From: a virus
DNA length: 38,213 bases
Virus record (IMG/VR): IMGVR_UViG_3300011997_000006
Location: 1-38,213 of that record
Strand: one strand, 5' to 3'
Shown here one piece after another: positions 1-38,213 of this stretch. The notes beneath the pieces are model-generated. The model had not been told where the DNA came from, did not search any database, and saw only the letters and a list, made by a program, of their open reading frames with translations. The stretch's first letter is position 1; each line of letters opens with the position of its first letter. A program made the position numbers and the translations under genes.

Positions 1-841
1 GGAACGCGAAGTGCTCAGTGCCGGTGGGAACCACGCCGCCGACGAACTCGGCACGCAGGTAGTACGTCGCGTTGCCGGGAAGGCCGTTGTAGAACGCCAT
101 GCCCGCGTCGTCCGCGGCCAGGGTGAGCTTGACCTCGTTCGTGGACTTGGCCTCGACGTTTCCGGCTGGCGCGCCAGCGAGGGACGCGTCCAGGACGAAG
201 AACGGCTTCCGGCGTCCGGTGGTCTTGGCCTCGAAGTCAAAGCAGCGGGTGAGCTTTGTGGTGCCGATGCCAACGAAGGCGGTGTCCAGGTAGAACGTGC
301 CCTCGGTCAAGTTGATGGGAACCAGGGCCTCGGTCACGACGGCGCCCGTGGACAGGGCCACGCCGTCTTCGATGGCGCCCCCGACGAGGGTTCCGTCCGC
401 CTTCGGGGTGTTGCCGGCCTTCCAGCCCAGGGTGAGCTCTGTGCCAGCGCAACCAGACACGCGCTGCGCACGGCCCACGTCGCCGGTCTCAACAGTCAGC
501 GAGGCGACGGCGTCCGCACCGAACGTGTTCGGCTGGAACGACCAGGACTGCGAGACGAGGTCGGTGCCCGCGGTGACAACGGCGTTGCCGATGACGGTCG
601 CGAGCAGGTACTGCAGCTCGGTGTACGTCGGCACGCCGGTCACCTTCAGCTCGGCGTAGCTCTCTTCCAGGGTCGTGACGGTGACGTGCTTCGCGCCCTG
701 CGGGGTGAACTCGCCGGTCTTGATCTTCGGCTGCGGCTCAATGCTGAACGCGCTGAGTCGGTGCAGCGCCGGTACGCCGGTGCCGGGGACGGTCTCGACG
801 CCCACCTGCGAGCTCTGGAGAACGCTTGTGCGTTCGGTCAT
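1..841 (-). CDS. Major tail protein (tail tube), N-terminal 280 residues; continues across the seam
   Basis: This is the first 280 codons of the major tail protein. Reading on the minus strand it runs off base 2 and resumes in frame at 38115, giving 329 residues that end at 37966. The product should polymerise into the tail tube around the tape measure. It starts MTERTSVLQSSQVGVETVPG, an N-terminus with a VGxETxPGT pattern common in actinophage and HK97-like tube proteins. The ATG at 841 follows an AAGGAG ribosome site in ATCAAGGAGATCATCATG. A promoter-like GGGACGGTACAGGGC lies upstream at about 876-890; the same 15-mer precedes the fibre gene. It sits between the tail terminator gene and the G/GT chaperones, the standard siphovirus position. 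The role rests on gene order and sequence character. No frameshift is visible. Confidence 0.85.
   Translation of the reverse strand, partial: MTERTSVLQSSQVGVETVPGTGVPALHRLSAFSIEPQPKIKTGEFTPQGAKHVTVTTLEESYAELKVTGVPTYTELQYLLATVIGNAVVTAGTDLVSQSWSFQPNTFGADAVASLTVETGDVGRAQRVSGCAGTELTLGWKAGNTPKADGTLVGGAIEDGVALSTGAVVTEALVPINLTEGTFYLDTAFVGIGTTKLTRCFDFEAKTTGRRKPFFVLDASLAGAPAGNVEAKSTNEVKLTLAADDAGMAFYNGLPGNATYYLRAEFVGGVVPTGTEHFAF
2..99. repeat. Terminal direct repeat, left copy (assembly circularisation overlap)
   Basis: Bases 2-99 are identical to 38116-38213 (98 bp). Base 1 differs from 38115 (G against T). Joining the ends gives an intact gene, so the overlap marks a circular or circularly permuted molecule, not two real repeats. 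Confidence 0.85.
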
Positions 842-921
842 GATGATCTCCTTGATAGAGGGGGCGCGTCTGCGCTGCCCTGTACCGTCCCGGTGTTCGC
901 ACGCGGGGCAAGGAGCGCGGG

Positions 922-1332
922 TCAGGCCCCGTAATGGCAGCGGTAGATGCCGCCCAGAGCCCGGCGGGTGACTCCCGCGGAAACCTCTGTGAGGCGGAAC
1001 GGGGACTGGCGCACCAGGCCGTAAACGGTCCCGTACGAGTTCACGGCACGCGCAGCCTGCAGGAGCTCGTCGACTCGGGAGTACGCGGGGGCCAGGTCTG
1101 CGTACCCGGCTTCACCGATGACGCGCACCAGCCACAGGCCGCTCGTCACGACGCGGGTGCCGTCGATGGTGGTCAGGTCGGATCCGTTGCCGTAAGGGGT
1201 GAACGTGACCAGCGGGAACGGGTCGCCGTTGGTGTTTGGGTGCTCGGTCACAGCGCTGACGAGGGCCATCAGGGTTGTGTCGCCGGACAGCGCCGCGTTG
1301 ATGAGGGCGTCGGGGGCCAGGTCAGCCAACAT
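922..1332 (-). CDS. Tail terminator / tail completion protein
   Basis: A 136-residue protein starting MLADLAPDALINAALSGDTT. Its length, its single-domain pattern and the interior VTFTPYGNGSDL and VDELLQAARAV segments fit tail terminator proteins, which cap the tail tube and set the head-tail junction. It lies directly before the major tail gene, where siphoviruses carry the terminator. Its ATG (1332) lies 11 bp inside the end of the preceding gene (stop at 1322), so the two are probably translationally coupled. The family call rests on position and size more than on a motif. A different head-tail connector is the main alternative. Confidence 0.6.
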   Translation of the reverse strand: MLADLAPDALINAALSGDTTLMALVSAVTEHPNTNGDPFPLVTFTPYGNGSDLTTIDGTRVVTSGLWLVRVIGEAGYADLAPAYSRVDELLQAARAVNSYGTVYGLVRQSPFRLTEVSAGVTRRALGGIYRCHYGA

Positions 1333-1792
1333 TGGGGACGCCCCTTCCGGGCCGGTCGAGTTTGGCCGTCACCTCAGCGATGTACACGTCCCGTGCTACG
1401 GCGCCGACGTGGCCGGCGGGCTCCATGAACGGGCGCGGCTCCGTGACCCGGTTGCCGAACGATGAGCCGAACTCGAGCGCGGCCGCGTACGGCGCGGCGA
1501 CACCGCCAGCGACGGCGCCCTGAACGCGGCCGTTGCCGGCAGTCTCAACGTGGCACGTCGCGGCCAGGACCCCGGTCCAGTTCGCGGGAGCCTCGCCGGG
1601 CGCGCTTGCCTGGTGCGGCAGCGGCTGCGGGCCGGACGTGTACACGACACCCGTCTTCGGGCCGGACAGGATTTCGCGGCGCATCTCAACCACGGTTGCC
1701 TCCGCACCGATTCGGTTCGCTTTGTTCATCACGGCGAGCAGCGCGGCCCCGTACAGGGGCAGGTCATTGAACACGACTCCGCGGGCGGGCAT
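1322..1792 (-). CDS. HK97 gp10-like tail completion protein
   Basis: A 156-residue protein. I chose the ATG at 1792 (MPARGVVFNDLPLYGAALLA) because it overlaps the upstream stop as ATGA; a longer frame starts at 1810 with no better signal. The N-terminal helix followed by a basic, glycine-rich middle, the GxxxxAxPYAAALEFGS segment and a C-terminal arginine-rich tail resemble HK97 gp10-type proteins at the head-tail joint. The segment AALEFGSSFGNRVTEPRPFM is typical of that family. Neighbours are a head closure protein before it and a tail terminator after it. The role is inferred from this pattern and from synteny. Confidence 0.65.
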   Translation of the reverse strand: MPARGVVFNDLPLYGAALLAVMNKANRIGAEATVVEMRREILSGPKTGVVYTSGPQPLPHQASAPGEAPANWTGVLAATCHVETAGNGRVQGAVAGGVAAPYAAALEFGSSFGNRVTEPRPFMEPAGHVGAVARDVYIAEVTAKLDRPGRGVPNVG

Positions 1793-2175
1793 CAGAGCAC
1801 CTCCTCGCACCAGATGACGTTTTCGGCGTTCCAGCTGGTCTGGTCACCGGCGCGGGTGGCTTCGAGCGTGATTCCTTGCGGCGTCACGTGCAGGCGGTCC
1901 TTGTCAAGAATGTCCACGCCCGGCCCGACGGTCAGCTTGTACGGCGTCACGGCTGCGAGGCGCCCGGCGATCACGGGCTCGTCGCCGCCTGGGTGGCGCT
2001 GCGACCGGACGCCGAGACGGCACGGCAGCGGGTCGCCGGCCTGCGCCCACGTCTTTGAGACTGAGCCAACGGCGTCCTTCGTGCTGGTGGGGCGCATGAC
2101 GGTGACCGTGTCCGGGAACGTGCCCGCACACGTGGCCTGCATTCGGGCCAGCTGTGTTGGGGTCAGGCCGCTCAC
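1792..2175 (-). CDS. Head closure / head-tail stopper protein
   Basis: A 127-residue protein starting with GTG at 2175 (MSGLTPTQLARMQATCAG). The GTG overlaps the upstream TGA in a GTGA junction. A longer reading from 2244 is unlikely because it would run back into the previous gene. The body contains a beta-rich VIAGRLAAVTPYKLTV then DILDKDRLHV, a pattern seen in SPP1 gp16-like stoppers that close the portal channel after packaging. It sits between a connector gene and the gp10-like gene, as expected for head completion. Functional assignment is from pattern and order, so moderate. Confidence 0.6.
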   Translation of the reverse strand: MSGLTPTQLARMQATCAGTFPDTVTVMRPTSTKDAVGSVSKTWAQAGDPLPCRLGVRSQRHPGGDEPVIAGRLAAVTPYKLTVGPGVDILDKDRLHVTPQGITLEATRAGDQTSWNAENVIWCEEVL

Positions 2176-2375
2176 AGTCCCAGCTCCTCGTCGTCGTTGT
2201 CGCGCAGGTGCCGTTCCGCAATGGCCGCAATGACGGGCCCCCACGCGACCCGCAGGTCTCGGGACGCTGACGGCTGGCCGATCAGGTGCCGGATGACGCC
2301 GATGCGCCCCCGGACGCGGGCCAGGTACGTCGCCCGGTACAGGGCGGCGCGCTCGTCGTCAGTCAGTTCGCTCAC
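2172..2375 (-). CDS. Small conserved head-region protein, function unknown
   Basis: A 67-residue acidic-ended protein, MSELTDDERAALYRATYLAR onward, ending NDDEELGL. It is predicted mostly helical with an Arg-rich centre. I do not recognise a family. It overlaps both neighbours: its ATG lies in the upstream ATGA and its stop in the downstream GTGA. It is therefore made with the head-tail connector proteins and may be a small partner of them. No catalytic or metal-binding residues are visible. Confidence 0.75.
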   Translation of the reverse strand: MSELTDDERAALYRATYLARVRGRIGVIRHLIGQPSASRDLRVAWGPVIAAIAERHLRDNDDEELGL

Positions 2376-2788
2376 AGCAGCACCCCGCCAAACCCAATCG
2401 GGTTGCCGTACGGGTCGGTGGTCAGCTCGCCCAGGGAGTAGCCGGCGTACCCGCCAGTGTTGAGGGTGCCCTGGCCGCCCTCACGGGACAGGAACTCGGC
2501 GGCCATCGCGAGGCAGTGCGTGTGGACCTGGTCGCGGTCGTACGAGTTGCCGTCAACGGTGAACTTGAAGTCTCCGGCGACCTTCGCCGCTTTCCAACGC
2601 CAGCCCTCAGCAGCGGCAGCGTTCAGCGCGTACGTGTTCTCCCAGGTGGCGTCCGTCGGGTAGCGCCCGAAACGGTCGGCGCGCGCGGCAAGGGCCAGCA
2701 GCGTCGTCAGCTCATCGACGGTCAGCACCGGCTCTGCGCCGTCTCCGAGCATTGATGCGAGCTGGGTTTGGGCCTGTGTCGCGTCCAT
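2372..2788 (-). CDS. Head-to-tail adaptor protein
   Basis: A 138-residue protein (MDATQAQTQLASMLGDGAEP). The N-terminal helices with VDELTTLLALAARAD, then WENTYALNAAAAEGWRWKAAKVAGDF, are characteristic of gp6/gp15-like adaptors that bind under the portal. It is the first gene after the major capsid gene, the usual adaptor position. A ribosome site (CGGAGG) precedes the ATG, and a promoter-like GGACGGT lies about 25 nt further upstream, so a second internal transcript may start here. It ends in an ATGA junction with the next gene. Confidence 0.65.
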   Translation of the reverse strand: MDATQAQTQLASMLGDGAEPVLTVDELTTLLALAARADRFGRYPTDATWENTYALNAAAAEGWRWKAAKVAGDFKFTVDGNSYDRDQVHTHCLAMAAEFLSREGGQGTLNTGGYAGYSLGELTTDPYGNPIGFGGVLL

Positions 2789-2909
2789 CGCGGTAACCTC
2801 CGGGGGTTGTCTCTCCTACACCGTCCGGCGCGGGGCGTGCTGGGCACGGATACGCAGCAAAGCCCGCCCCCTTGTGAGGGGCGGGCTCGGCCGTGTGTCA
2901 GCGGGCCGG

Positions 2910-3854
2910 TCAGACGGCAGGTGACGTGATGACCGCGAACGGGTAACGCGTGGCCGCGTTCTCGTTGTCGAATCGGATGGTGTTGGCAACCTCGAAGGCG
3001 CAACGGAAGGTGATGCGGAGCGCCTTCGCGTCCTGCTGTGCCAGGTTCAAGATGACCTTGCCGGTGTCGTCAGAGATGACGCCCTCGGTCAGGACCTTGT
3101 ACTGCATGTCGGTACGAATACCGAGCAGTGCCTGCGTGCTGTCACCCACGACGCCCTCGGCGACGGACAGGCCGACTGGCCAAAGTCCACGCGCCGGGTA
3201 GATCGGGGTTGTGCCGTACACGTTGGTCGGGGAGACCTCGGACAGCTCGCGACCCAGTGAGTCACGCGCCCCACGAAGGAGACCCTTGTACCGTGTCGTG
3301 AAGGCCAGGAGGTCGCTGTCGTAGCCGTCCTCTTCGACGAGTGCGAACAGGTCGCTCAGGTCCTGGGCAAGCCCACCCGCGGCGACCGCGTTGCGACCGC
3401 GGACCACAACGTGGTTGCGGAGGATGGCCTCTGGCACGATGGCGTCGCCCCACGTGACCGGCTTGTCGGTTCCGAAGAGGACCGCTGCGTCAATCTTGCG
3501 GGCGATGGCGGTGGCGATGGCGGACGTGGACTCGGCAACGATGTCGTAGTCGGCGTCGTCGGCAACCTCGTCCGGGATGGGCAGGATGACGGCCAGAACC
3601 TCGGCGTTGAGGAACTTGTTCGCCCACGCCATGTTCGTGGCCTGCTTCAGGCCGGTGTCACCGTTGACGAAGTACGCGACAGGCAGCGAGGACAGGACGG
3701 GCAGACGGGTCTGCTTCCGGCTCATCTTGACGTGCGTGAAGCTCTGGAGGGCGAGGCTGTGAGCCTCGACGGAAGTGAGGATGGCCTTGGAGACATCCTC
3801 CGGCATTAGTGCGCCGGCCGCTGTGCGGTCGGTTACTGCATCGTAAACGGTCAT
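2910..3854 (-). CDS. Major capsid protein, HK97 fold
   Basis: A 314-residue protein, the size of HK97-type capsid proteins without a covalently attached delta domain. The N-terminal arm includes MPEDVSKAILTSVEAHSLAL. The middle, LPIPDEVADDADYDIVAEST, resembles the E-loop/P-domain transition in the HK97 family (V.ipeel.dda..di). The C-terminus FRCAFEVANTIRFDNENAAT carries the usual strand with a basic-hydrophobic pattern. The ribosome site AAGGAG lies upstream of the ATG at 3854. A separate scaffold gene precedes it, and adaptors follow after a 120-bp gap. The assignment is strong from both sequence pattern and order. Confidence 0.9.
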   Translation of the reverse strand: MTVYDAVTDRTAAGALMPEDVSKAILTSVEAHSLALQSFTHVKMSRKQTRLPVLSSLPVAYFVNGDTGLKQATNMAWANKFLNAEVLAVILPIPDEVADDADYDIVAESTSAIATAIARKIDAAVLFGTDKPVTWGDAIVPEAILRNHVVVRGRNAVAAGGLAQDLSDLFALVEEDGYDSDLLAFTTRYKGLLRGARDSLGRELSEVSPTNVYGTTPIYPARGLWPVGLSVAEGVVGDSTQALLGIRTDMQYKVLTEGVISDDTGKVILNLAQQDAKALRITFRCAFEVANTIRFDNENAATRYPFAVITSPAV

Positions 3855-3914
3855 GATGGTTTCGCTCCTTAGGGCGATTGAGGGATGAGGGGTGCTGCGG
3901 TCAAGCTGGTTTGG

Positions 3915-4454
3915 TTAGCCCCAGAGCTTCTTGCGAAGCTCGGAGTTGAAGTTCGGGGTGCTGGCGTCGCCGTGTTGGGCGGTGTCGGCAGACCCGGCCG
4001 GACGGAAAAGCTCCGGGTACGTCTTGCGCAGGTCCGCGATGACGGGTGCGGCGCCCTTTGCCGGGTCGTAGGTGGCGAGGTCGGCCAGGCGCGCTACCGC
4101 GTCGGGTCGGACTGCACCAGCCGTTTTGGCTTCGGCGGTGAGGGCGTCCAGTGAGGTGCGGGTGCCGGCGTCTTTGACCAGGCCCTCGTACTTCCCCTTG
4201 TAGTCGTCCCGCTCCTGCTCCAACTTCTGCGTGGCGGTCAACTTCTCGTCTTCGTGAACTTTCAGGGACTTCTCCAGTGCGGTGATGCGCTTTTGTGCTT
4301 CGAGGTTTGCGGCCCGTTCAGCTGCTAGCGCCTTGACTCCGCCCTCACCGAGGGTGTCGTCCGTGGTCCCTGTTTTGGTGCCCGTGGCCGCTTCGGCGGC
4401 TGCCGATGCGGCAGCCTCGTCTGTGGTTCCGGTTGGTGCTGTTGCGTCAGCCAT
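3915..4454 (-). CDS. Capsid scaffold protein
   Basis: A 179-residue, low-complexity, highly charged protein. I placed the start at the ATG 4454 (MADATAPTGTTDEAAASAAA) because GAGGA lies 7 nt upstream; another ATG at 4472 is in frame. The Ala/Thr/Glu-rich N-terminus is followed by a coiled coil at about residues 45-95 (LAAERAANLEAQKRITALEK and continuing). The C-terminus ends ELRKKLWG, a short basic tail of the type that contacts the capsid protein. Position immediately before the major capsid gene supports scaffold function. No protease motif is visible. Confidence 0.82.
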   Translation of the reverse strand: MADATAPTGTTDEAAASAAAEAATGTKTGTTDDTLGEGGVKALAAERAANLEAQKRITALEKSLKVHEDEKLTATQKLEQERDDYKGKYEGLVKDAGTRTSLDALTAEAKTAGAVRPDAVARLADLATYDPAKGAAPVIADLRKTYPELFRPAGSADTAQHGDASTPNFNSELRKKLWG

Positions 4455-4563
4455 CGCGGCATCCTCATTCATCTGTCAATCGGGACGTATCGCACGTCCA
4501 GGTCGCATCGCGCTCCCATGCCCGTGACTGTCGCCAGCGTTTGGAACCACGCAAGGAGCCCGA

Positions 4564-5415
4564 TCAGCGGGGGATGATGGGGCGCAGGGAGCGCAGGGAG
4601 CGCGTGTACGGGACGCGGCCGACGCCCGGGACGTCGCGCCAGCCGACGATGCCGGTGTCCGCGGCCGTGTCCAGGGTTAGTGCCCCGGCGCGGTACGCCT
4701 GGAACTTGCCGGGCCCGATGAGCGCGGTCAGCTCTTCGTCGGTCATGTCGGCCGGGGAGGTCAGCCCGGAGCCGTCCATGTGCTGGAAGGTCCGGTAGCG
4801 CCACTCCTGCACGCACGCGCAGTTCGGGTGGGACGACATGGGCTCGCTGGCTGGGAACTCGTGCCCGTCCAGGACGGCGCACATCTCACAGCACGCGGAC
4901 CCGGCCACCCAAACCCAGGACAGTGCCCTGTTCGCGGTGGCGGTCTCTGCGGAGGCGTCACGCCACGCGCCGGCGGTCATGGTGGCTGCGACCGTAGCGG
5001 CGGCGACGGCCGCGGTGGCGAACACGGCCGCCGTGTCGGCGCCAGGGGTGACGACGGGCAGTGCCTCGAGCGCGCTCTCTTCGGCAAAGGCCGGCACTGG
5101 CGGGGCGGTGCCGCCGGGTCCCATGGCTCGGGTGTACGCGGCAACCCCTGTGGCGGTAGCTGCCGTTGCGGCGGCCCGCTGGGCGGACGTGATGAGGTGC
5201 GCCCCAAGCACGGCAGCCTCAGCCTCGACAGCCGCAACCGCGTCCCCTACCGCAGCCGCCACAGCAGCCGCCGAGGTGGCGCCTTTGACGGGCACCCCGG
5301 CCGCTACCCTGCCGGCGGCCAGGTACAGGGCGGCCAAGTTTGCGGCAGCCTTGCGGGTCTGCTGGCGCAGCTCGAGCGCGACAGCCGCGGCGGTCCCGGT
5401 GCCCCCGGTGGACAT
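4564..5415 (-). CDS. MuF-like minor capsid protein
   Basis: A 283-residue protein with an alanine-rich helical N-terminal half and a C-terminal MuF-type module. The module shows paired cysteines and a conserved histidine: ACCEMCAVLDGHEF, then MSSHPNCACVQEW. This CxxC...dG...HpnCxC pattern is the hallmark of Mu gpF-like head morphogenesis proteins, which probably bind a metal and attach near the portal. The start ATG (5415) overlaps the portal stop as TAATG. About 110 bp separate it from the scaffold gene, with no clear gene between. No fused toxin or ADP-ribosyltransferase domain is visible. Confidence 0.85.
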   Translation of the reverse strand: MSTGGTGTAAAVALELRQQTRKAAANLAALYLAAGRVAAGVPVKGATSAAAVAAAVGDAVAAVEAEAAVLGAHLITSAQRAAATAATATGVAAYTRAMGPGGTAPPVPAFAEESALEALPVVTPGADTAAVFATAAVAAATVAATMTAGAWRDASAETATANRALSWVWVAGSACCEMCAVLDGHEFPASEPMSSHPNCACVQEWRYRTFQHMDGSGLTSPADMTDEELTALIGPGKFQAYRAGALTLDTAADTGIVGWRDVPGVGRVPYTRSLRSLRPIIPR

Positions 5416-6833
5416 TAGGCGGCCTGGTCAGCCGGTACCTGGTCAGCGGCCGCGGCCTGCCCGGCACGGAACTCGGACAGCACCTGCGCGCGCATCGCGT
5501 TCGAGCCAGCGGTCTGCTGCTGCGCTTCGGTGGCGGCCAGCGCCATGATGCGGGTCACGTCGTCGGGCGCGAACCCCAAGCCCTCGAGGCGGTCTTGCAG
5601 CGGAACGCCTGCAATGAGGGCCAGGCCCGCGTTCTCGAGCTTCTCATGCTCGGACAGCGGCGCCGGGTCGTCCCACTCGCAACGCAGGGACACTTCGCGG
5701 CCCAGCATGACCAGTACGCAGAACGACATCGCGGACGCGTACTCGGGACCCCACCGGCGCTGCCTGGAAATGATGCGGGCCGTCAGGGACCTTTCCTCAA
5801 TCTTGACCTGCTCACCGGACGTGGCAGCTGTCGCTTCCAAACCCAGGACGCGCGGCGGTGTGCCAGAAACGCGGGCCATGTTGTTCTGAATGGTCTCCTG
5901 GGACGCGAGGATCTTCTCAATGTCGCCGGCCTTGAAGTCGCCGAACTTCGCCCCCTCGCCCGGGGCGTCCCACACGCCGCCCGGGAAGGATTTGAGGCCC
6001 TGCACGGTCTTGCCTGTGACCGGGTCGGTCCTTTGCTGAATGCCGGTAGCCCACCGTTGCGGCATCGCGTAGTACTCGCGGGCCACGACCTCATCGCAAA
6101 CGGCTTTGTTCAGGGTGTCCTGGACGGGGATGACGTCGCGCAGCTCGGACCTCTTGTTGTCGAGCTCCCACACGGTCAGCGGATACCCGTGCGTGATGGT
6201 GGACTGCCCGTTCTCGTCGACGAACGGTTCCAGCTGCGTGCGCCGCACAGGCAGCTGGCCGCTGTTGGACTTCGTGATGTACTTCTCGATGCGCCCGGCC
6301 TCGTACAGGTTTACGCGGTACTTTTTGCCGAACACCCACGCGCGGACGGCCGCGGTGCGGAGCCCGGGTACTTCCGGGTCCGTGATGACGGTGGTGGTGC
6401 CGGAGTCAGCGAACTGCAGGACGGGGGCACCCGCGGGGGTGACCCACCCGATGAGGAACGCTTTGCCGTCCACAAACGCACCAGTGTTCGCGTCCTCTTG
6501 CAGGGCGTCAAAGTGGACGGCCTCCAGGCAGTCCTCGATGCACTCCGCGACCTGCTCCGTTTCGGACAGGGTCGAGTCGGTGGTTGCCGCTTCGGTGGCG
6601 TCCCTGACGCCGAACCCGGAGACGTGCAGGCGGTCGGTGCGGGTCAGCACAATCCGCTCGCACAGGTTGACCTTGGACGCGCGCACGTACGGGCCGAAGG
6701 CGTTCAGGAACTTGGCGGTCGCAAACGTCAGGTCGTGGTCGCCGTTGAAGTACGCGCGCGGCTGGGTCAGGGCTTTGATCTGCACTGCAATCTGGGACAG
6801 GCCCTGCTCAATCGGGTCCACGGTGCTCTCCAT
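5415..6833 (-). CDS. Portal protein, SPP1 Gp6-like
   Basis: A 472-residue portal protein, normal length for the SPP1 gp6-like family. It forms the dodecameric gate for DNA entry and docks the terminase. Visible landmarks are an N-terminal IAVQIKALTQPRAYFNGDHD, the segment FGPYVRASKVNLCERIV typical of actinophage portals, a central VYRVNLYE-like beta region, and the C-terminal half with MARVSGTPPRVLGLEATA followed by a long helix with RIISRQRRWGPEY. The C-terminus is Ala/Gln-rich and probably extended. It starts 1 bp after the large terminase stop, which argues for coupled translation. The next gene is the MuF-like protein, as expected. Confidence 0.92.
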   Translation of the reverse strand: MESTVDPIEQGLSQIAVQIKALTQPRAYFNGDHDLTFATAKFLNAFGPYVRASKVNLCERIVLTRTDRLHVSGFGVRDATEAATTDSTLSETEQVAECIEDCLEAVHFDALQEDANTGAFVDGKAFLIGWVTPAGAPVLQFADSGTTTVITDPEVPGLRTAAVRAWVFGKKYRVNLYEAGRIEKYITKSNSGQLPVRRTQLEPFVDENGQSTITHGYPLTVWELDNKRSELRDVIPVQDTLNKAVCDEVVAREYYAMPQRWATGIQQRTDPVTGKTVQGLKSFPGGVWDAPGEGAKFGDFKAGDIEKILASQETIQNNMARVSGTPPRVLGLEATAATSGEQVKIEERSLTARIISRQRRWGPEYASAMSFCVLVMLGREVSLRCEWDDPAPLSEHEKLENAGLALIAGVPLQDRLEGLGFAPDDVTRIMALAATEAQQQTAGSNAMRAQVLSEFRAGQAAAADQVPADQAA

Positions 6834-6834
6834 C

Positions 6835-8292
6835 TCAGTAGGACCGCGCGTAGCCGATGAAGGTGGTCGGCGGCGTGTAGTAGGCGAGCATGACGGCGTC
6901 GCCGTCGTCGGGGCTCCTACCCAACCGTGCGGCTACGTCGGCCTTGGGCAAGACTTTGGTCCGGCCGGTCCCGTCGGTCGCCCACGTGGGCAGGGACAGC
7001 TCATGGATCACGTCGTCGTCGGCCTCGTTCAGGTCGATGGCGGCCTGCTCGCAGAGCTCCCGGAAGCCCCAGTGCATCTCGGCGCGGACGTTCGCGAACC
7101 GGGTCTTTTCGCCGGCGCCGGCACCGAAGTTGACGCCGTGAATGGTCGCCTTGTGCTGCCGGTTGTGGCCGGCCGTGGTGAGGATGTCCACGATGCCGTG
7201 CCCGACGCCGGTCGAGTCGATGTTGACCTCAGTTGCGCCCGTTTCGTGAATGTGGCGGGTGATGATGGCGGCGAGCTTCACGTGGTCTTTCTCCCGGTAC
7301 CGCCACACGCGCCCGAGCTTGACGCCGCGGCGTTCGCGCACAACGGTCTGGTCCCCGTTGTCGGACGCGCCGATGTCGATGCCGAGGACGACGGGCGCGA
7401 GCTGCTCCGGGGTCCAGGTGCGGTCGCCCTGGCATTGGCGCATCCACGAGTGCGGGATGACGCCGTCGGACGCGTCTTTGGGGAACAGGCCGAGGACTTT
7501 CGCCGTGTACACGGCGGAGTCTTCACCCCACCGGGCTTTTCGTTCGTCAACCCACGTTTGGGAGACGAGCAGCGGGCGCAGCCAGTCAGGCACGACCTCG
7601 CCGGTCATGTTGGGGGTATCAAGGCAGGAGACGTGGATGGTGTTCCAGCCGGAGCCCGGTGCGCAGATGGTGGCGAAGTAGGAGCGCGGGTTGTCAGGGT
7701 TGCCGATGGCGAGCACGCGGCAGTCGTCGTTTGTGGCGAGGGACTCGATGGCGTCCCACAGGGGGCCTTCTACGGCCCCGGCTTCATCAACGATGACGAG
7801 GACGTACCGGGCGTGAGTGCCTTGGAACGCGCCCGGGTCATGGTCGGACGGTTTGGAGCCGAACCCTACGAGCTCCTCACCAGGGCGGGGCGTGGCGTAG
7901 TGGGTGCCGTCGTCCGTCATGTGCCATTCGACTTGGGTGACGCGGCCGGGCAGTTTGCCTTTGCGGTGCGCACGGCCGATGTACCGCCACAGGATGGCGC
8001 GGACCTGTCGGTACGTGGGCGCGGTGGACACGACCATGGCGGTGCCGGGCGGGTGGGCTGCGAGCCACCAGGCGGTGATGAACGCGGCGAGCTGGCTTTT
8101 GCCGGTGGCGTGCCCGGACTGGACGGTTGTGTGCCGGTTGTCGCGGACGGACTCGATGATTTCGCGCTGCTTGGACCAGAGGAACCCGTCGAGGCGGTCG
8201 GTGACCCATTGGACGGGGTCGGCGGTGTAGTTGGGCGCGTTGACCATTTGCTCGAGCAGGTCGAGTGCGCGGGCTGTGGCGGCGTCCATCAT
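6835..8292 (-). CDS. terL: Terminase large subunit (packaging ATPase and nuclease)
   Basis: A 485-residue large terminase that translocates DNA into proheads and cuts concatemers. Walker A is GHATGKS (residues 60-66), preceded by WSKQREII and HTTVQS. Walker B is VLVIVDE (164-170), with the catalytic Glu at its end. A coupling motif follows near RVLAIGNPDNPR. The RNase H-like nuclease domain starts with GIDIGAS (Asp306), with VNIDSTGVGHG further on and DDGDAV near the C-terminus, giving the usual acidic residues. The start ATG (8292) lies exactly 7 nt after CACAGT, suggesting a leaderless late transcript; a second ATG lies one codon in. It is the first gene of the late block, directly downstream of a strong terminator. 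Confidence 0.96.
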   Translation of the reverse strand: MMDAATARALDLLEQMVNAPNYTADPVQWVTDRLDGFLWSKQREIIESVRDNRHTTVQSGHATGKSQLAAFITAWWLAAHPPGTAMVVSTAPTYRQVRAILWRYIGRAHRKGKLPGRVTQVEWHMTDDGTHYATPRPGEELVGFGSKPSDHDPGAFQGTHARYVLVIVDEAGAVEGPLWDAIESLATNDDCRVLAIGNPDNPRSYFATICAPGSGWNTIHVSCLDTPNMTGEVVPDWLRPLLVSQTWVDERKARWGEDSAVYTAKVLGLFPKDASDGVIPHSWMRQCQGDRTWTPEQLAPVVLGIDIGASDNGDQTVVRERRGVKLGRVWRYREKDHVKLAAIITRHIHETGATEVNIDSTGVGHGIVDILTTAGHNRQHKATIHGVNFGAGAGEKTRFANVRAEMHWGFRELCEQAAIDLNEADDDVIHELSLPTWATDGTGRTKVLPKADVAARLGRSPDDGDAVMLAYYTPPTTFIGYARSY

Positions 8293-11231: not shown

Positions 11232-11927
11232 TCAGGAGTCCCAGGAGTAGCCCTTGTGCGCCTTGCCGCGTGGCGCCGTCCCCAAGTCGGCCTCGCTGCC
11301 CCACACGTCCCAGCCCTCACGCGGGTACCGGGCGAACATTTCCAGGTACGGCCCAGGCGAGCACGACTCAATCAGGTCGTACTGCTCATCAGGCTTGCGC
11401 GAGTGCTCACGCTTCCGGGTCTCAATCATGTTCACCTGCGACCGGCCGGGGCCCAGGGTGCGCATCGAACCCTTGACGCCGAAGAGGATGATCTCGGTCA
11501 CGTTCCGGAAGTAGAACCCGACACCGCGGCCATCAGGGCCGCCGTCCTTGCGCCGCTTGGCCCACACGACGTTGCTGATGTACCTGTAGCCCCACGCCTC
11601 CATGACGCGCAAACCGTCCGGTAGTAGCGCGTTCGGCACCCACAGGTACAGGTGCGAGTTTTTTGCGGCGGACTCACCGACGGGCAGGGCCGCGATGTCG
11701 TCGAGCGTCATTGTGTCGTACCTGTCGAGGCGCCGGTGCTCTGGTGCGACCTTCCCGGTTCGGTTAGTGAACCTCCACGGCGGGTCGGCCAGGACCGTCT
11801 TGAAGCCCCCGTCAACGACCGGCAGGCCCGGTAGCCCGCTGTAGTCGGCGGTGTCAGCGCGCAACGGGGCCGCCCGCAGTCTCGGCGTGCGGTCTGCGTC
11901 TGGGGCCGGAACGGGCTGGGCAGTCAT
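11232..11927 (-). CDS. MT-A70 family DNA adenine N6-methyltransferase
   Basis: A 231-residue methyltransferase. The catalytic DPPW motif lies at residues 48-51 in FKTVLADPPWRF. The following parts also fit MT-A70: SHLYLWVPNALLPDGLRVME, WGYRYISNVVWAKRRKDG, VTEIILFGVKGSM, and a C-terminal RKPDEQYDLIESCSPGPYLE then MFARYPREGWDVWGSE. It is expected to transfer a methyl group from SAM to N6 of adenine. The ATG (11927) overlaps the stop of a BglII/BstYI-like endonuclease gene in an ATGA junction. This implies a restriction-modification pair in which this enzyme protects phage and lysogen DNA. The recognition sequence is not readable from the protein. Confidence 0.9.
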   Translation of the reverse strand: MTAQPVPAPDADRTPRLRAAPLRADTADYSGLPGLPVVDGGFKTVLADPPWRFTNRTGKVAPEHRRLDRYDTMTLDDIAALPVGESAAKNSHLYLWVPNALLPDGLRVMEAWGYRYISNVVWAKRRKDGGPDGRGVGFYFRNVTEIILFGVKGSMRTLGPGRSQVNMIETRKREHSRKPDEQYDLIESCSPGPYLEMFARYPREGWDVWGSEADLGTAPRGKAHKGYSWDS

Positions 11928-12733
11928 TCATCATCCTCAGGGTTGTCAACGGTTTGGTTTGCGGATCCAACAGTGCTCGCGGCTTCCGCCACCGCAGTGG
12001 CCACGTTATCCGGCGGCACGAAGCACCTCTCCGTGATGGCAATGGCAAGCAGCGGGCACCCTCCGGCGTCACCGCGTCCTATGCGCGGTGTCAGCTTCTC
12101 TAGGTTCGTCGTCGTGGTTGAGCCAAGCGGGTCATCGGCGAGCTTGCGCAGCACGCCCAGGCGCTCGTAGTCGCCGTCCTGCTCTGCTTGGGCCTTCGCG
12201 AGCCGGATGAGGTCAGCTGCCAGCGCCCGCAGCTTGCCGGTGATGCGCGTGACCATGACCGCCACGTCAATCTGTCCGGCTTCGTACAGGGCGCGGAAGT
12301 TCGAGATGTCACGGTCCAGGTTCCCGTCCTTGGCGTTCCACTCGACGTCGAGGGCGATGCGGCCTTTGACGTTATCTACCTGGTGGCCTTCGTTCACGTT
12401 GTGTGCGTGGCGTTGTCTCTTGGCTCTTTCGCCGCCCGCCCGGTATGGGTTGATGATGAGGCGGGTGTCAATGGTCTGCTCGTATTTGGCTTCCCGCCAG
12501 CCGCCTTCACGAAACGCTGTGTCGAGGGTCAGGGCGGCCGGGGTTTTGTTACCGCCTTTGGTGAGAATCATTTCCGTTGTGAGCTGGAAGTCGGACAGGA
12601 CCCTGCACATGTCATCGAACTCGTCCGGGTTGGTTGCTTGCATGATGGCGGCAGCGTTGCGGGTTTCGACGATGGTGTACCTGTCCTGGATGTCCTGTGG
12701 GAGAACGTCTTTCCACGACTCGGTGAGTTCCAT
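11924..12733 (-). CDS. BglII/BstYI-family type II restriction endonuclease
   Basis: A 269-residue protein. The diagnostic block at residues 117-142 reads HQVDNVKGRIALDVEWNAKD followed by GNLDRD and then ISNFRALYEAGQIDVAVMVT. This metal-site and strand pattern is that of the BglII/BstYI family, whose members cleave AGATCT or RGATCY. The N-terminal part contains IVETRNAAAIMQATNPDEFD. The gene starts at ATG 12733; a TAGATT hexamer lies 6 nt upstream, so the transcript may be leaderless. It precedes the MT-A70 methyltransferase with an ATGA overlap. No controller (C) protein is adjacent. It lies next to attP, a typical spot for lysogenic cargo. The frame is intact, so it is probably active; specificity is inferred only. 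Confidence 0.85.
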   Translation of the reverse strand: MELTESWKDVLPQDIQDRYTIVETRNAAAIMQATNPDEFDDMCRVLSDFQLTTEMILTKGGNKTPAALTLDTAFREGGWREAKYEQTIDTRLIINPYRAGGERAKRQRHAHNVNEGHQVDNVKGRIALDVEWNAKDGNLDRDISNFRALYEAGQIDVAVMVTRITGKLRALAADLIRLAKAQAEQDGDYERLGVLRKLADDPLGSTTTTNLEKLTPRIGRGDAGGCPLLAIAITERCFVPPDNVATAVAEAASTVGSANQTVDNPEDDE

Positions 12734-12745: not shown

Positions 12746-12954
12746 ACCGCGTGCGAGGCCCGGTTGGGGGATCGTCCGCCCGGTGGCGCGCCGCGCGTCG
12801 GGGCCGGTTAGGGATGAGGCCCCCGGCGATCCCTAATCCCTAACCCGATCCCTAATCGACCTAGCGGTCCTGACGATGAGACCCCGGGCGCCCCATGCTC
12901 ATAACCGATCCCCAACCGGGCGTCAAGTGAGCACGAAACGTCCGGTGCTCTACT

Positions 12955-12996
12955 CTGACACGGAAGAGGTCGCGGGTTCGATACCCGCATCGCCCA
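12955..12996 (+). other. attP: attP core: 3' half of tRNA-Val(GAC)
   Basis: Read 5' to 3' on the plus strand: anticodon loop CTGACAC (12955-12961, anticodon GAC), stem 3' strand GGAAG, variable loop AGGTC, T-arm GCGGG-TTCGATA-CCCGC (12972-12988), acceptor strand ATCGCCC and discriminator A (12996). The acceptor strand would pair with GGGCGAT, the usual start of actinobacterial tRNA-Val. The 5' half is absent and the bases before the loop do not pair with GGAAG, so this is not a functional tRNA. It is the crossover region that would rebuild the host tRNA gene on integration. Confidence 0.85.
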
Positions 12997-13011
12997 CGAA
13001 CGAATAGCGTT

Positions 13012-13052
13012 GCAGCGCAACGGCCCCCAATGCGCGGGGGGCGTTGCGCTGC
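13012..13052. terminator. Hairpin beside attP, probable terminator of the integrase transcript
   Basis: Arms 13012-13028 and 13036-13052 pair at 16 of 17 positions around a 7-nt loop. It lies 55 bp past the integrase stop on the minus strand and 16 bp past the tRNA fragment on the plus strand. It lacks a clean T-tract. Confidence 0.55.
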
Positions 13053-13107
13053 CCGGAAGCGCCCACCCGATCCCTAACCCGATCCCCAATAGCGGTGCGC
13101 GGCCTGC

Positions 13108-14343
13108 TCACGGCACGTCCTCCACAGCCTCTTCGACCTCGATGCCCGTGGTCGGCATCGACAGCCGCTTGGCGAGCTCGCGCCGGTCCACCTGCAACGC
13201 GTGACGGTACACCCGCTCGGTCGTGTGCGTGCTGGAGTGCATCGCCTGCTGGCGGACCAGCTCGATCGGCGCCCCGCCCGCAATCAGGAGCGAGACCCCG
13301 ACGTGCCTTAGCGCGTGCGCCGAATATGGCACCCCGGACGCCTTCCGGGCCGCGTCCAGGTGCCTGCGCCACAGGCCGTAGGACAGCATCCCGCCGCGCT
13401 CACCGCACAGCAGCGTGGCCGACCCGCGGGCCTTAGCGAACGCCGTCAGCCGGGCCAGCGGGCCCACCGCCTCGTCAATGAGGGTGATGTACAGGTCGTC
13501 GCCGCCGCCTTTGAGCGCCTCGACGACGCGCCCGGTGCTGGACGGGCGGGAGCGCCACACCAGGATTGAGCGCAGGTCCTCGTGGATGTCGTCCAGCAGC
13601 AGGGCCGACAGGGACTCCCAGCGCATCGACGTGAACGCGAACGCGCGCACAATGTCGCCGCGGCCCGGCCACTCGACGTCCATTGCGGCGGCCTGGGCTT
13701 CCACCTGGGCCAGGGACGGGATGACGACGCGGGCGGTGCGGCCGCGGGCGCCCCACACGGTGCGCAGCTCGACGGCGGGGGAGCGGGTCACGATGCCGGC
13801 CCGGACGGCGTCCCGGAACATGAGGCGGGCGACGGACGCGACCTTGTCCTGGGTGTCCGGGTCGGCCGGCTTCGTCTTCGGCTTGCCGGGCAGGGCGTGG
13901 TCGGTCACTTTGAGCGTTGTGATGGCGGAGGTCAGCTGGGCGGGCGTGACGGACACCATGCGCCGGTCCTCGCCCAGCATCGGAACGATGTACGCGTTCA
14001 CGTTGGCGCGCACGCCGCCCCAGGTGGTCTCGGGCCGGGGCACGCCGCCTTCGCCGCCGACCGGCTCGACCTTCCACTTGTAGCGGCGCAGGAACTCCAG
14101 GCCCCACTGCCCTACGGTGACGTACTGGGCGCGCGGCAGGACGGGCGCGGCGGACCCGGCGACCTGTTCGCGGAGGGCGGCCAGCTGGGCGGCCGCGTAC
14201 CGCTGTGTGCCGTACACGGTCTTCTCGCGCTGCCGGTTGGCGCGCCCGTCCCACACGCGCAGGGACCAGCCGGGCTGCCCGCCCTTCGTCTTGCGGGTGC
14301 CGTCGGGGCGGTGGTCGGGCTGGGGGACGCTGGTTGGCCGCAT
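13108..14343 (-). CDS. int: Tyrosine integrase
   Basis: A 411-residue site-specific recombinase. From the start at ATG 14343 (MRPTSVPQPDHRPDGTRKTK) the catalytic residues are visible: Arg241 in SMRWESL, Lys278 in VEALKGGG, His343 and Arg346 in HALRH, His369 in MHSS, and the nucleophile Tyr379 in ERVYRH. The N-terminal part has the GQPGWSLRVWDG beta region of an arm-binding domain and a SAM-like core-binding domain. The frame is open to 14481, but the 14343 ATG lies 7 nt after CACAGT and does not run into the divergent excisionase-like gene. The stop is 19 bp from the nearest arm-type repeat. It should integrate the phage at tRNA-Val(GAC). Confidence 0.93.
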   Translation of the reverse strand: MRPTSVPQPDHRPDGTRKTKGGQPGWSLRVWDGRANRQREKTVYGTQRYAAAQLAALREQVAGSAAPVLPRAQYVTVGQWGLEFLRRYKWKVEPVGGEGGVPRPETTWGGVRANVNAYIVPMLGEDRRMVSVTPAQLTSAITTLKVTDHALPGKPKTKPADPDTQDKVASVARLMFRDAVRAGIVTRSPAVELRTVWGARGRTARVVIPSLAQVEAQAAAMDVEWPGRGDIVRAFAFTSMRWESLSALLLDDIHEDLRSILVWRSRPSSTGRVVEALKGGGDDLYITLIDEAVGPLARLTAFAKARGSATLLCGERGGMLSYGLWRRHLDAARKASGVPYSAHALRHVGVSLLIAGGAPIELVRQQAMHSSTHTTERVYRHALQVDRRELAKRLSMPTTGIEVEEAVEDVP

Positions 14344-14356
14344 GGTCTCTACTGTG
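14344..14356 (-). promoter_or_regulatory. Leaderless promoter -10 (CACAGT) of int
   Basis: Minus-strand CGGCACAGT, then AGAGACC (7 nt), then the ATG at 14343. It decides the start among several in-frame candidates. Confidence 0.5.
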
Positions 14357-14467
14357 CCGTAGGGATCTGACAGCTCACTGCCGCCCCTACCCCGTGTGAC
14401 GAACGTCACACCGCCGGGGATTGCGCGGGGATTGTGCCGTTGGCGCGCGTAGTCACCGTACCCGCCC

Positions 14468-14710
14468 ATGATCACTGACACGCCGCTGGTGGACGTCCCC
14501 TCCGCCGCCGCCTACCTGAATGTTTCACAGTCGACCGTTCGCCGCCTAGTCAAGGCGGGGGAGCTGCCAGCCCGCCGCATCGGCACCCAGCTCCGCTTCG
14601 AGCGGGACACGCTGCTCGAGTACAGCGCGCCGGTCGAGACCGTGGCGCAGGGCCGGACCGGGTTCGACTTCCGGGCCGCGCGGGCCGCGCTGCGCTACTC
14701 CGCCGCCTGA
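14468..14710 (+). CDS. Excisionase-like helix-turn-helix protein
   Basis: An 80-residue protein with a MerR/excisionase-type HTH: VPSAAAYLNVSQSTVRRLVK, then AGELPARRIGTQLRFERDTL. This is the pattern of small DNA-binding proteins used as excisionases or recombination directionality factors. It is transcribed divergently from int, with 124 bp between the starts. CACCGT lies 8 nt before its ATG (14468), again consistent with a leaderless start. It could alternatively be a small regulator of the int promoter. The stop is 1 bp from the convergent stop of the next gene. Confidence 0.75.
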   Translation: MITDTPLVDVPSAAAYLNVSQSTVRRLVKAGELPARRIGTQLRFERDTLLEYSAPVETVAQGRTGFDFRAARAALRYSAA

Positions 14711-33872: not shown

Positions 33873-36800
33873 TCAGTACTGCCGGGTCAGGCGGTCCAGC
33901 TCGGCGAAGTGCTCCACGGATACCTTCTCGATTTCGGCGGTGATGGCGGCCTTGTCGGCTGCCGTCGTTGCCGCATCGAAGTGGTACACGGGTGCGTAGG
34001 TGACCGTGCGTGCGCCGCCGCTGTGGGCACCCATTCCGGCGCCGACGCCAGCCAGGGCAAGCCCGCCGATGGACGGCGCGGTGAAGCGCGTGTCAGCGAT
34101 GGTGCCCGTGACCTTGTCGAGGGTTTCGCGCAGCGCACCGATCTTGCCGGTCAGGCCGGCGCGCAGGCTGTCCATGATGGCGCCACCGTGCGGGGTGAGG
34201 AGTGTGGCGTCGTACGACAGAGGTCCCTTGTGCTCCGAAATCCAGGAGCCGATGCCGCCGATGAAGTTCTGAACGTCCCTGAACCTCTCCGTGATGCCGC
34301 GGAACAGGCCACCGAGGATTGCCACGCCGGCGTTGTACAGCCACGTGCCGGCGTTCGCGAAGATGCCTGTGACGAAAGCCCACGCGTCCTGGAACGGCTT
34401 GACGAACAGCGTGTTCAGCAGCGTCGTGAATGTGCCCCAGGCGGCCCTCACGTGGTCGACGACGCCCGTGACCAGGTTGACGACGCCGGCCTTGATGGCG
34501 TCAAAGTGCTGAGAGATGAACAGGACGGCCAGGCCGATAGGGCCGGTCAGCAGCGCGAGCAGCAGCGGCCAGTGCTCTTTGACCCAGCCGATGACGACCT
34601 TGCCGGCGTCAACGAGCCAGCCGAACGCGATGGTCAGGCCCTTCCAAATAGTCTGGAACCACGTCGTCTTTGTGGCAATCCACACGATGCCCGCGACCAG
34701 GGCGACAACGGCGGCGATGACCAGTCCGATTGGGTTCGCGTCCATCGCCACGTTCAGGAGCCACTGCACGCCGGCCCATACCTTCGTGGCCGCGGCAACG
34801 GCGAGCTGGATTCCTTTGTTGATGACGAGCTTGGCGTTGGCGATGGTCAGCACCGAGCTCACCTTGGAGAACCCGGAGACGATAGCGCCGGTGACCTTGC
34901 CGGCCACGCCAGCGAGCGACGCCCAGCTGGCCTTGAACACGTCCAGTGCTTTGGTCGGCAGCGACTTGGAGAGACTGTTGACCTTGAGGGCCTGGGCCTC
35001 GCTGGCGAACCGCCCGGTGGCCGGGTTGTGCCAGGACCCGGCAGCGTCCTTTACGAACGCCTGCGGTCGCCCCGCGTTGCTCATGGAGCCGGCCACGGTG
35101 GACCAGCTTGACTTCGCCAGGTCGGTGGCCCTGCTCGCGCCGGCCTTGATGCCGGAGCCCATCCGGGCGGCCAGAGACGGCTTTTTGCCGAACGGCAAAG
35201 ACATCTGCTCACCGGCCTTCGGGCCGTACCCGGGCATGCCGGGGATCTTGGAGGCGAGGTCCCGGAACTTACCGGCGGCCGTGGTCGCCCGGCCCCACGC
35301 GCCGGTGATGCCATCAATGGACGACTGGACTACGCCGAACGTGCCCTTCACAACCTTGAACGCCAGGTACGCAACCAGCAGGTCCTTGACCAGGGTCATG
35401 TGCTTGGCGAGCCAGCCGACGACCTCGACCATGACCGTGGTGATTTTCAGGATGGCCGGGATGAGCGTGCCGGCGATGAACTTGGCTGCGGACTCGAACG
35501 CGCCCACAATCTCGGCCTTGTGCGCGGCAACGTAGCTGATGACGGCCGTGACCGCGTCCTGCAGTTTCTTGAACTCGACGGCGGCATTGCGGCCCATCTC
35601 AACGAACGCGTTCCCGGACGGTCCGTTGCCCTGGAAGCCCTCCATGAACAGCTTCGCGTCGGCGGCAACGGTCGTGGCGACCTTTTTGACGGTGGCGCCC
35701 ATCTCGGCAACCTTCGCCCGGAAGGTCTCGGAGTGCGTGTACGCGAAGTACGCGGCGCCGCCCAGCAGCAGCAGCGGTGACAGGAGCAGCAGGACGGGCG
35801 CGGCGGCGGCCGCCGTGGACACGGCAAACGTCAGAACGGCAGCGGTCAGCACGCCACCAACGGCTGCTGCGAGGCCGATAGCGGCACCTTTGTTGTCCGC
35901 GAAGTACCCGAAGACCGACTGCACGACCGGGATGAGCTTGCCGCCAATCGTGATCAGGAGCGTCTGCGCGGATTCCTTGATGCGGTCAACCTGGTTAGCA
36001 AAGAGGCCCTGAATGGTGGACCAGTCCTTCACGGCGCCGCCCGCGTCGGTGGTGGTTGCGGCGATGGCTTTCACGTTGTCGTTGAAGTCGCCGGACGCCT
36101 TGCCGGTCAAGTGCAGGGCAACCTGCAGACCGGTCTGGTCGCCCATCAGCGATTTGAGTGCCGCGGTGAACGTTTGCGCGTCCTGGCCGCCGCCCTTCAG
36201 CGCGGCGGAGAACCCGTGGCTGCTGTCCTGCATCGCCTTCCACTGCTGGAGCAGCGCGCCCTGCGGGCCCGGCAGGGCCTTCATTTCCAGGCGGTACTCG
36301 CCCAGGCCAATCTTGCCGGACGCGTACGCCTCAGCCACCTTTTTCGCTTCCGCCGGAAGGCTTGCCATCGCGCGCTTGGCGTTCTCGGCAGCGGCCTGCG
36401 ACTGGTTGAACGCGGACCGCAGCGTGAGCCCGGCCGGGCCCATCTTCGTCATGATGGCGCCGTAGATTTCGTCCATCGTGCCCGTCAGGCCCTTTTTGCC
36501 GAGCTGCTGCGCTACCGTCTGCGCGTTCAGGCCGTACGAGGCCATCGAGGACGTCATTGCGGCGGTTGGGGCTGCCAGCTTCACAATGGTGTGGTTCAGG
36601 TTTTGGGCCGCCTGGTCAGCTGACAGGCCCTGCGCGGTCATTGTGGCGAGCGCGCCAGCGACCTGTGGGAAGCTCAACCCGAGCGCGGCGGCGTTGGGGA
36701 GCACGGAGTGAATAGAGCCGGCGAGGTCGTCCATCGTCATCTTGCCTCGACCGACCGCCGTGACCATCTGGGACATGATCAGGTTGACGCTGCCGACCGG

Positions 36801-37295
36801 CGCGTGCATGTCTTTCATCACGGTCGTCAGCGCGTTGCCGACCTGCACCATGTCGGCGCCCTCAATCTTTGCGCCCTGCGTGGCCGCGTTGAGGACTTTG
36901 AGGCCGTCCGCGCCGTGGAACCCGGCGGACTCGATCTGGTACATGCCCGCGGTCAGCTGCTCGGTGGTTGTGCCCGTGTCCCGGGCCACTTTCAGGATGC
37001 CGTCAGAGATGGAGGACAGGTTGGACTTGTTCTCGCCGGCAGCCGTGACGAGCTTCATCGTCTGCTTTTGGAAATCGGCCGCCATTTTGATGCTGGCAAC
37101 CCCGACCCCGACCGCGGTCGCGACAGCGGCTCCGCCCACCGTGGACAGGCCAGCAACGGCCTGGTGCCCCTTCGCGGTAATCTTGTCCATCGCGCCGCCG
37201 GACGTAGCGATGCCGGACATGACCTTGCCCTGGGCGCGCTCGAAGCTCGACGCGTCGCCTGTGAACAGCGTTCGCAGTACTGCGACGTCAGGCAT
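33873..37295 (-). CDS. Tape measure protein
   Basis: An 1140-residue protein from ATG 37295 ([20 protein letters not shown]), with GAAGGGTGG as ribosome site; a GTG at 37307 is an alternative. The N-terminal 350 residues match the TP901-type tape measure core ([29 protein letters not shown]-like segments). Hydrophobic segments near 470-530 ([40 protein letters not shown]) and about 850-910 may insert in the host membrane during ejection. At about 0.15 nm per residue the tail would be near 170 nm. It is preceded by the G/GT chaperones. Confidence 0.95.
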
Positions 37296-37313
37296 TCGGC
37301 CCACCACCCTTCG

Positions 37314-37906
37314 TCATCGTCGGCGCTCCTCTAGGTCTTTCTGGATTTCCTGCTCCGCGTTCTCGTAAACGAGCGCGGCCATAACCCACCACTCGTTGCA
37401 GGCCTGCACGAGCTCCGGCGGTGGCGTAGGAACGAGCGTCCGCGGGTCCACCTTCATGAACCGCGCGGACCGGAGCAGCAGGTACTCGTCAGGCTGGTGG
37501 TACTTCACGTCTGGGTTGCGGGGGTCAATCCCGCCCCCCAGCACCATGACGCGCCTTAGGCCTTCGGCTCGGGCGCGGAGGCTTTTGGGGCGTCCTCCAC
37601 CACCGCTTCGAAGATGCGCATCATCATCACGTCTGGCAGGGCGTTGACGTTCTCCCTCGTCAGCGGCCACGGCTCGCCGTTCATGGAGAAGTCCCACGAC
37701 GCCAGGATTTCGGTCAGGGTGTCCGCCAGCCCGGACCGGGGCGCGAGTGAGACGCCGTCCCGCTCGTCCCGCTCGGCCGTAGCCATGTGGGCAGTGGATA
37801 GCGCCCGCGGGCGGTACACGACCACCAGGACCGTGTCCGTGTTCGGGAAGGTGACGGTGCATTCGTGCAGGTCTGCATCGAAGTACTTCGTGAGGTCGAA
37901 ACCCAT
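37314..37906 (-). CDS. Tail assembly chaperone GT (product of -1 frameshift)
   Basis: A 197-residue fusion made when ribosomes slip back one base at C-CCA-AAA (37589-37583). The first 108 residues are those of protein G; the reading then continues from AGC as SLRARAEGLRRVMVLGGGID and ends ENAEQEIQKDLEERRR at 37314. The zero frame stops at 37556. The heptamer follows the X-XXY-YYZ rule and lies in the correct frame, eight codons before the G stop. The downstream frame has no clear start or ribosome site of its own at its beginning. In lambda-like phages GT binds the tape measure protein, which follows 18 bp later. Confidence 0.85.
37556..37906 (-). CDS. Tail assembly chaperone G
   Basis: A 116-residue protein from ATG 37906 (MGFDLTKYFDADLHECTVTF) with AAGGAG about 10 nt upstream. 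The frame is open back to 38056, but that part lies over the tail protein end. It has a beta start (VTFPNTDTVLVVVYRPRALS) and a helical C-terminus (LTRENVNALPDVMMMRIFEA). The slippery site is at 37583-37589, near the C-terminus (DAPKASAPEPKA). The chaperone keeps the tape measure soluble while the tail tube assembles. It lies between the major tail gene and the tape measure gene, as in most siphoviruses. Confidence 0.88.
   Translation of the reverse strand: MGFDLTKYFDADLHECTVTFPNTDTVLVVVYRPRALSTAHMATAERDERDGVSLAPRSGLADTLTEILASWDFSMNGEPWPLTRENVNALPDVMMMRIFEAVVEDAPKASAPEPKA
37583..37589 (-). other. -1 ribosomal frameshift slippery heptamer CCCAAAA
   Basis: On the minus strand C-CCA-AAA in the G frame (codons CCA, AAA). 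It fuses G to the downstream T frame. Confidence 0.82.
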
Positions 37907-37965
37907 GCTGTGTGTGCTCCTTAGGCGGTGGTGGGGTGAAGCGGTGGCAGTCAGCCGCCCTCGGG

Positions 37966-38213
37966 TCAGAGGGTGGCTGCGGCGTTGACGAGCGTGTAGT
38001 GCTGGTTGTTTCCGGCGCCGTCCTCGACGATGGTCAGGGTGATGTCCACGCCCCACACGCCTTCGGTGTCTTTCAGGCCGGACACGTCTTTGACCTTCAC
38101 TGCGTAGTCCGCGGTGAACGCGAAGTGCTCAGTGCCGGTGGGAACCACGCCGCCGACGAACTCGGCACGCAGGTAGTACGTCGCGTTGCCGGGAAGGCCG
38201 TTGTAGAACGCCA
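37966..38213 (-). CDS. Major tail protein, C-terminal part across the seam
   Basis: The C-terminal end of the tail tube protein that begins at 841. Bases 38116-38213 repeat the stretch already read at 2-99. The last 49 residues are new and start after EHFAF with TADYAVKVKDVSGLKDTEGV. The C-terminus is ITLTIVEDGAGNNQHYTLVN then AAATL. The join keeps the frame, so the full protein is 329 residues. Confidence 0.85.
   Translation of the reverse strand, partial: AFYNGLPGNATYYLRAEFVGGVVPTGTEHFAFTADYAVKVKDVSGLKDTEGVWGVDITLTIVEDGAGNNQHYTLVNAAATL
38116..38213. repeat. Terminal direct repeat, right copy
   Basis: Identical to 2-99; see the left copy. After removing one copy the genome is about 38,115 bp. 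Confidence 0.85.

Follow-up and report, generated by a model that had tools for sequence, protein, structure and literature searches.

The window, as we call the whole 38,213-nt stretch of IMG/VR virus record IMGVR_UViG_3300011997_000006 analysed here, very probably carries a complete type II restriction-modification (R-M) pair as cargo of a temperate siphophage, itself probably a phage of Actinobacteria, with an RGATCY-type target and a role in the lysogen. This reading draws on sequence, on a structure model and on analogy with a homologous phage pair. The two genes are as follows:

11924-12733, minus strand: BglII/BstYI-family type II restriction endonuclease (R), 269 aa, assigned by PF09195 and a structure model, with D120, D129 and E131
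11232-11927, minus strand: MT-A70 family adenine DNA methyltransferase (M), 231 aa, with a DPPW motif, assigned by PF05063 and PADLOC MTase_II

The endonuclease of the original prediction is real and intact, but it had been treated as a lone gene, and its partner M, the other half of an R-M pair, was missed. A lone nuclease is ruled out, the methyltransferase gene overlapping R.

By sequence and by model R is an intact BglII/BstYI-family endonuclease, for which cleavage is predicted. Its open reading frame begins with ATG, runs through 269 codons with no internal stop and ends exactly at the limits given above. The Pfam profile PF09195 (Endonuc-BglII) matches R over profile positions 1-162 of 163 at 90.5 bits (E 1.3e-25) against a curated cut-off of 26 bits, which bears out the family originally predicted. 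An AlphaFold2 model built with 36 sequences has a mean pLDDT of 92.2 and a pTM of 0.87, and a Foldseek comparison of this model with the PDB places three BstYI entries at the top and BamHI next. VIA-align Z scores of the model are 17.4 for BglII, 17.1 for BstYI, 15.2 for BamHI and 12.7 for OkrAI, after which they drop to 6.0 and below (unrelated rows); the model has the fold of BglII, BstYI and BamHI. A profile of 12 relatives matches BstYI by sequence (E 0.0013). There was no match for R in a phmmer search of the PDB, among PADLOC profiles or in a single-protein scan of viral contigs, and NCBIfam profiles gave none for R or M.

The catalytic residues of BstYI are D119, E128 and Q130. When R is compared with BstYI, the check that had been named for its intactness, D120, D129 and E131 are all present and align with these three positions through the 12-relative profile; the metal-binding positions are acidic or polar as in BstYI, although R has D and E where BstYI has E128 and Q130. 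In a set of 155 relatives that includes the window, position 120 is D, position 129 is D or E and position 131 is E in 153 rows; the remaining two are gapped at the metal-site positions. Loss of activity through residue loss was considered, D129 being odd beside E128 of BstYI, and was rejected: position 129 is D in 109 and E in 44 of the 153 readable rows.

The assignment of M is equally direct, with 97.2 bits to PF05063 (cut-off 23.9) and E 5.8e-116 to PADLOC MTase_II; window M has the DPPW motif, as do 144 of the 149 relatives of M in the form in which they were extracted. M is the gene after R, and the two share a 4-nt overlap, ATGA. With a separate endonuclease gene beside a methyltransferase gene, R and M together are, on sequence grounds, in all likelihood a complete type II R-M pair. 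The same arrangement recurs among the relatives, where an M relative lies within 300 bp of R at 59 of 63 viral-contig loci, at 75 of 80 bacterial genome loci (the best 80 of at least 567), at 6 of 8 plasmid loci (8 of 13 records read) and at 3 of 3 phage loci (3 of 5 records read); phage Lo5R7ANS is counted twice in this locus set (L003, L064). Besides R and M, no window gene is common to the relatives' loci, which suggests that the two genes move together.

It could be that only M matters, R being a non-functional passenger and M being kept as an anti-restriction methyltransferase. Solitary methyltransferases are described as common in phages (PMC6536676), and M is far more conserved than R. 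R is nevertheless full length and without stops, has all aligned catalytic positions, and remains paired with M whether on phages, plasmids or chromosomes, and we regard a passenger role for R as improbable.

The preferred reading, a complete pair, is supported by a homologue that has already been characterised in vitro. NrS-3, a temperate phage of deep-sea Nitratiruptor, encodes R.Nph3I and M.Nph3I (PMC10734518, PMC9723563). As reported there, cell-free R.Nph3I cuts all four RGATCY probes and 6mA blocks the cutting (PMC10734518); the product of M.Nph3I is RG(6mA)TCY (PMC10734518), and RGATCY is fully methylated in the NrS-3 and host genomes (PMC10734518, PMC9723563). Protection of the lysogen by R.Nph3I and M.Nph3I is offered by the authors as a tentative model (PMC10734518). 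The window resembles NrS-3 in being a temperate phage with R then M adjacent, the one matching PF09195 and the other of MT-A70 type. Window M and M.Nph3I are 64% identical in alignment (72% locally over 176 residues), and window R and R.Nph3I 36% (39% locally over 190 residues). The two differ in that R.Nph3I is of the NPF subtype with E at position 129, that the 4-nt overlap of R with M in the window has no counterpart in NrS-3, and that NrS-3 is a phage of another phylum. The window pair is a well-supported further example of a temperate-phage R-M pair of the Nph3I/BstYI sort, and by analogy with R.Nph3I, which cuts in this way, sequence-specific cutting at a GATC-centred site is expected of R.

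Other members of the fold are more distant. BstYI (RGATCY) and BglII (AGATCT) resemble window R in fold, and BstYI also in its aligned catalytic positions, but sequence identity is 12-17%. Their own methyltransferases are N4-cytosine enzymes, unlike the MT-A70 enzyme of the window.

Window R may not read the same site as R.Nph3I. In a tree of 147 of the 155 R rows (L086 and L098, both AGNL, are among those left out), window R falls in a 51-row clade (SH-aLRT 100) with R.Nph3I outside, and its nearest relative is only 53% identical. Residues 134 and 137-139 divide the family into three subtypes: A/GNL (53 rows, including the window), S/QT[FY] (55 rows) and N/PF[FY] or N/EFF (45 rows, including R.Nph3I). 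These residues come directly after the catalytic strand, which speaks against a simple transfer of specificity from R.Nph3I; with R only 36% identical and of another subtype (AGNL, not NPF), the target of window R may differ from that of R.Nph3I.

In favour of such a transfer, the M genes are not neatly divided along the R subtypes. When the three R-subtype labels are placed on an M tree of 143 of the 149 rows, they change 25 times, against a least possible 2 and a mean of 67.4 when shuffled; another M tree held 145 of the 149. By sequence, then, M mostly follows the R subtype but has been exchanged repeatedly. Four pairs of loci (L018/L062, L117/L151, L021/L025 and L114/L144) have M 83-88% identical beside R of different subtypes only 27-38% identical, for example L018/L062 (M 88%, R 30%) and L117/L151 (M 87%, R 27%). 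Such pairs are, to judge from these identities, natural partner exchanges inside one R-M family. An exchanged M must protect the sites of the resident R, so a methyl target common to the R subtypes is likely, and M swaps between subtypes are what would be expected if it were common; the swaps are also indirect support for R and M acting on one sequence. The R target could still be narrower than the M target.

It is possible, though we think it rather unlikely, that the R-M pair works but that R recognises a target different from full RGATCY, such as AGATCT alone, GGATCC alone or some other site centred on GATC, with M covering at least that site. The clade of window R excludes R.Nph3I, residues 134 and 137-139 differ (A/GNL against N/PFF), and specificity does vary within the fold, BglII having cut only the AGATCT probe in the experiments of PMC10734518. 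Against this, near-identical M (83-88%) beside R subtypes at 27-38% favours one methyl target, under which a narrower R would still be protected. A bolder proposal, which we think unlikely, is that the AGNL enzymes form a so far uncharacterised BglII-fold branch with a narrower or different GATC-centred target than the shared RGATCY methyltransferase, and that the phage would use the pair at the attP edge as a module for addiction and superinfection exclusion that is tied to integration, in Actinobacteria.

Site counts do not choose among these targets. The window has 9 RGATCY sites against 18 in first-order simulations and 14 YGATCR sites against 31; every GATC context is scarce, so RGATCY does not stand out as the avoided site. 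In the flanks of the family loci, a set of carrier loci only, GGATCC (0.59) and AGATCT (0.66) are the 2nd and 5th lowest of 63 palindromes, and over whole loci of the same set AGATCC (1.00) and GGATCT (0.85) show little or no avoidance. One of the nine window sites lies within R itself:

11963-11968, no strand assigned: GGATCC inside the R gene, from the site count

The M gene has no RGATCY site. The window is in this like NrS-3, whose sole GGATCC is within its R gene and whose M gene is without RGATCY (PMC10734518). We rejected this layout as a family feature, since across 154 loci GGATCC occurs 27 times in R genes where 28.9 are expected and 21 times in M genes where 25.1 are expected. Separately, GTGCAC is absent from the window where a Markov estimate expects 11.6, the strongest avoidance of 31 testable 6-mer palindromes, and may reflect a host R-M system that targets GTGCAC.

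The placement of the pair ties it to integration. The original prediction put the endonuclease beside attP, and the position stands: between R and the integrase gene lie a core matching a tRNA-Val gene and clusters of repeats flanking it.

12817-12917, no strand assigned: left cluster of CCGATCCCTAA-like repeats (repeat families D1 and D2), by inferred function probable integrase arm sites
12957-12997, plus strand: probable attP core, the 3' part of a tRNA-Val gene from the anticodon onward, 39/41 nt matching
13058-13091, no strand assigned: right cluster of CCGATCCCTAA-like repeats (repeat families D1 and D2), by inferred function probable integrase arm sites
13108-14481, minus strand: tyrosine integrase (PF00589 31.9 bits, cut-off 27.1; phrog_1 integrase, E 1.5e-26)
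14468-14710, plus strand: small HTH protein, probable excisionase (PF12728 52 bits; phrog_66 excisionase and transcriptional regulator, E 3.1e-8)

The 41-nt core matches, at 39 positions, a tRNA-Val(CAC) gene in a genome from the order of Microbacterium, where ARAGORN confirmed a tRNA-Val(CAC) gene at the matching place. Core and flanking repeats fit an attP with arm sites. A 31-nt version of the core was found exactly in none of 10 genomes, and 2 of 297 genomes from a single order contained it with one mismatch; a 35-nt version was found in none of 396 genomes of the phylum, and the genomes searched yielded neither an exact attB nor a host. Just downstream of the integrase and before the attP core, at 13012-13052, is a 17-nt inverted repeat, 94% complementary with a 7-nt loop, perhaps an integrase terminator.

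The window also encodes terminase, portal, major head protein, tape measure, tail proteins and endolysin, and its best named terminase relatives are from Streptomyces phages (38-39% identity). The R-M pair thus lies in a genome with an integrase, an attP core shared with a tRNA gene and structural genes, as temperate-phage cargo does, and the carrier is probably a temperate siphophage of Actinobacteria. The head genes (terminase, portal, protease, major head) occupy 1-8292 and the tape measure and tail genes 33873-38213, every one of them on the minus strand, an order like that of a circular genome cut open between its head genes and its tail genes.

An alternative in which R serves the lytic cycle, degrading unmodified host or rival DNA while M shields phage DNA, seems to us highly improbable. 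The pair does occur in the phage Lo5R7ANS, which has a gene for a T7-like RNA polymerase, but the Lo5R7ANS record has an integrase too. M made in the lysogen would protect the host as well, and in NrS-3 the host genome is indeed methylated (PMC9723563). The attP and integrase position here also points to the lysogenic state, as do the tyrosine integrases in 33 of the 63 viral records with the R family (at E 0.001 or better, with 30 of them above the Pfam cut-off).

In the preferred reading the pair would act in the lysogen. R would cut RGATCY sites, or some of them, where the DNA is unmethylated, and M would make RG(6mA)TCY, leaving host and prophage protected. Integration at a tRNA-Val gene would put R-M at one edge of the prophage, with the integrase at the other end. 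In the lysogen the pair could restrict unmodified incoming phage and plasmid DNA, and loss of the prophage could be penalised as modification dilutes out (addiction). Expression, exact target, defence and addiction are what we infer for the window pair. Three observations count against this explanation at the step of entry into an unmethylated host: R is ahead of M in translation order, a promoter scan showed no sigma-70-like promoter for R-M, and no controller gene was seen. A TAGATT, read by eye a few bases upstream of the R start, might be a leaderless -10 box.

The original prediction held that such endonuclease genes are rarely carried by phages, and for the BglII/BstYI family this is so: R relatives are in 5 of 50,697 phage records (two NrS phages, two Lo5R7ANS records and one unannotated fragment). 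Among 72,556 plasmid records 13 have one, and a pattern-limited search of IMG/VR gave at least 63 loci. According to the introduction of PMC10734518, phages have been regarded as having almost no complete R-M systems. Finding this gene pair again in another temperate lineage, in this case at attP, suggests that phages recurrently carry this R-M family as cargo, and three R subtypes served by one interchangeable methyltransferase family are a natural set for how the BglII fold sets its target.

EcoP1I of phage P1 is a type III system and so of another R-M type than the window pair. Like the window, phage P1 and Staphylococcus phage Phi42, which carries Sau42I, are temperate phages with a complete R-M system, as the titles of references in PMC6536676 indicate; Sau42I, too, is of another type, BcgI-like by the title of a reference in that paper (PMC6536676). 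Nearer in kind are plasmids pTHAF40_e, pSMR3-2 and pZM22-2, mobile DNA in which the BglII/BstYI and MT-A70 families stand side by side as in the window, although in plasmid pairs M is often on the opposite strand. In the two plasmid exceptions a 'DNA adenine methylase', not of MT-A70 type, is near R (L008, 2062-3240; L010, 3123-4313) with a small HTH gene adjoining it, which indicates that within the BglII-type endonuclease family the partner methyltransferase can switch to another class. PIN-domain, VapC, YafQ or RelE/ParE toxin genes lie near R-M on plasmids L005, L007, L008, L011 and L012.
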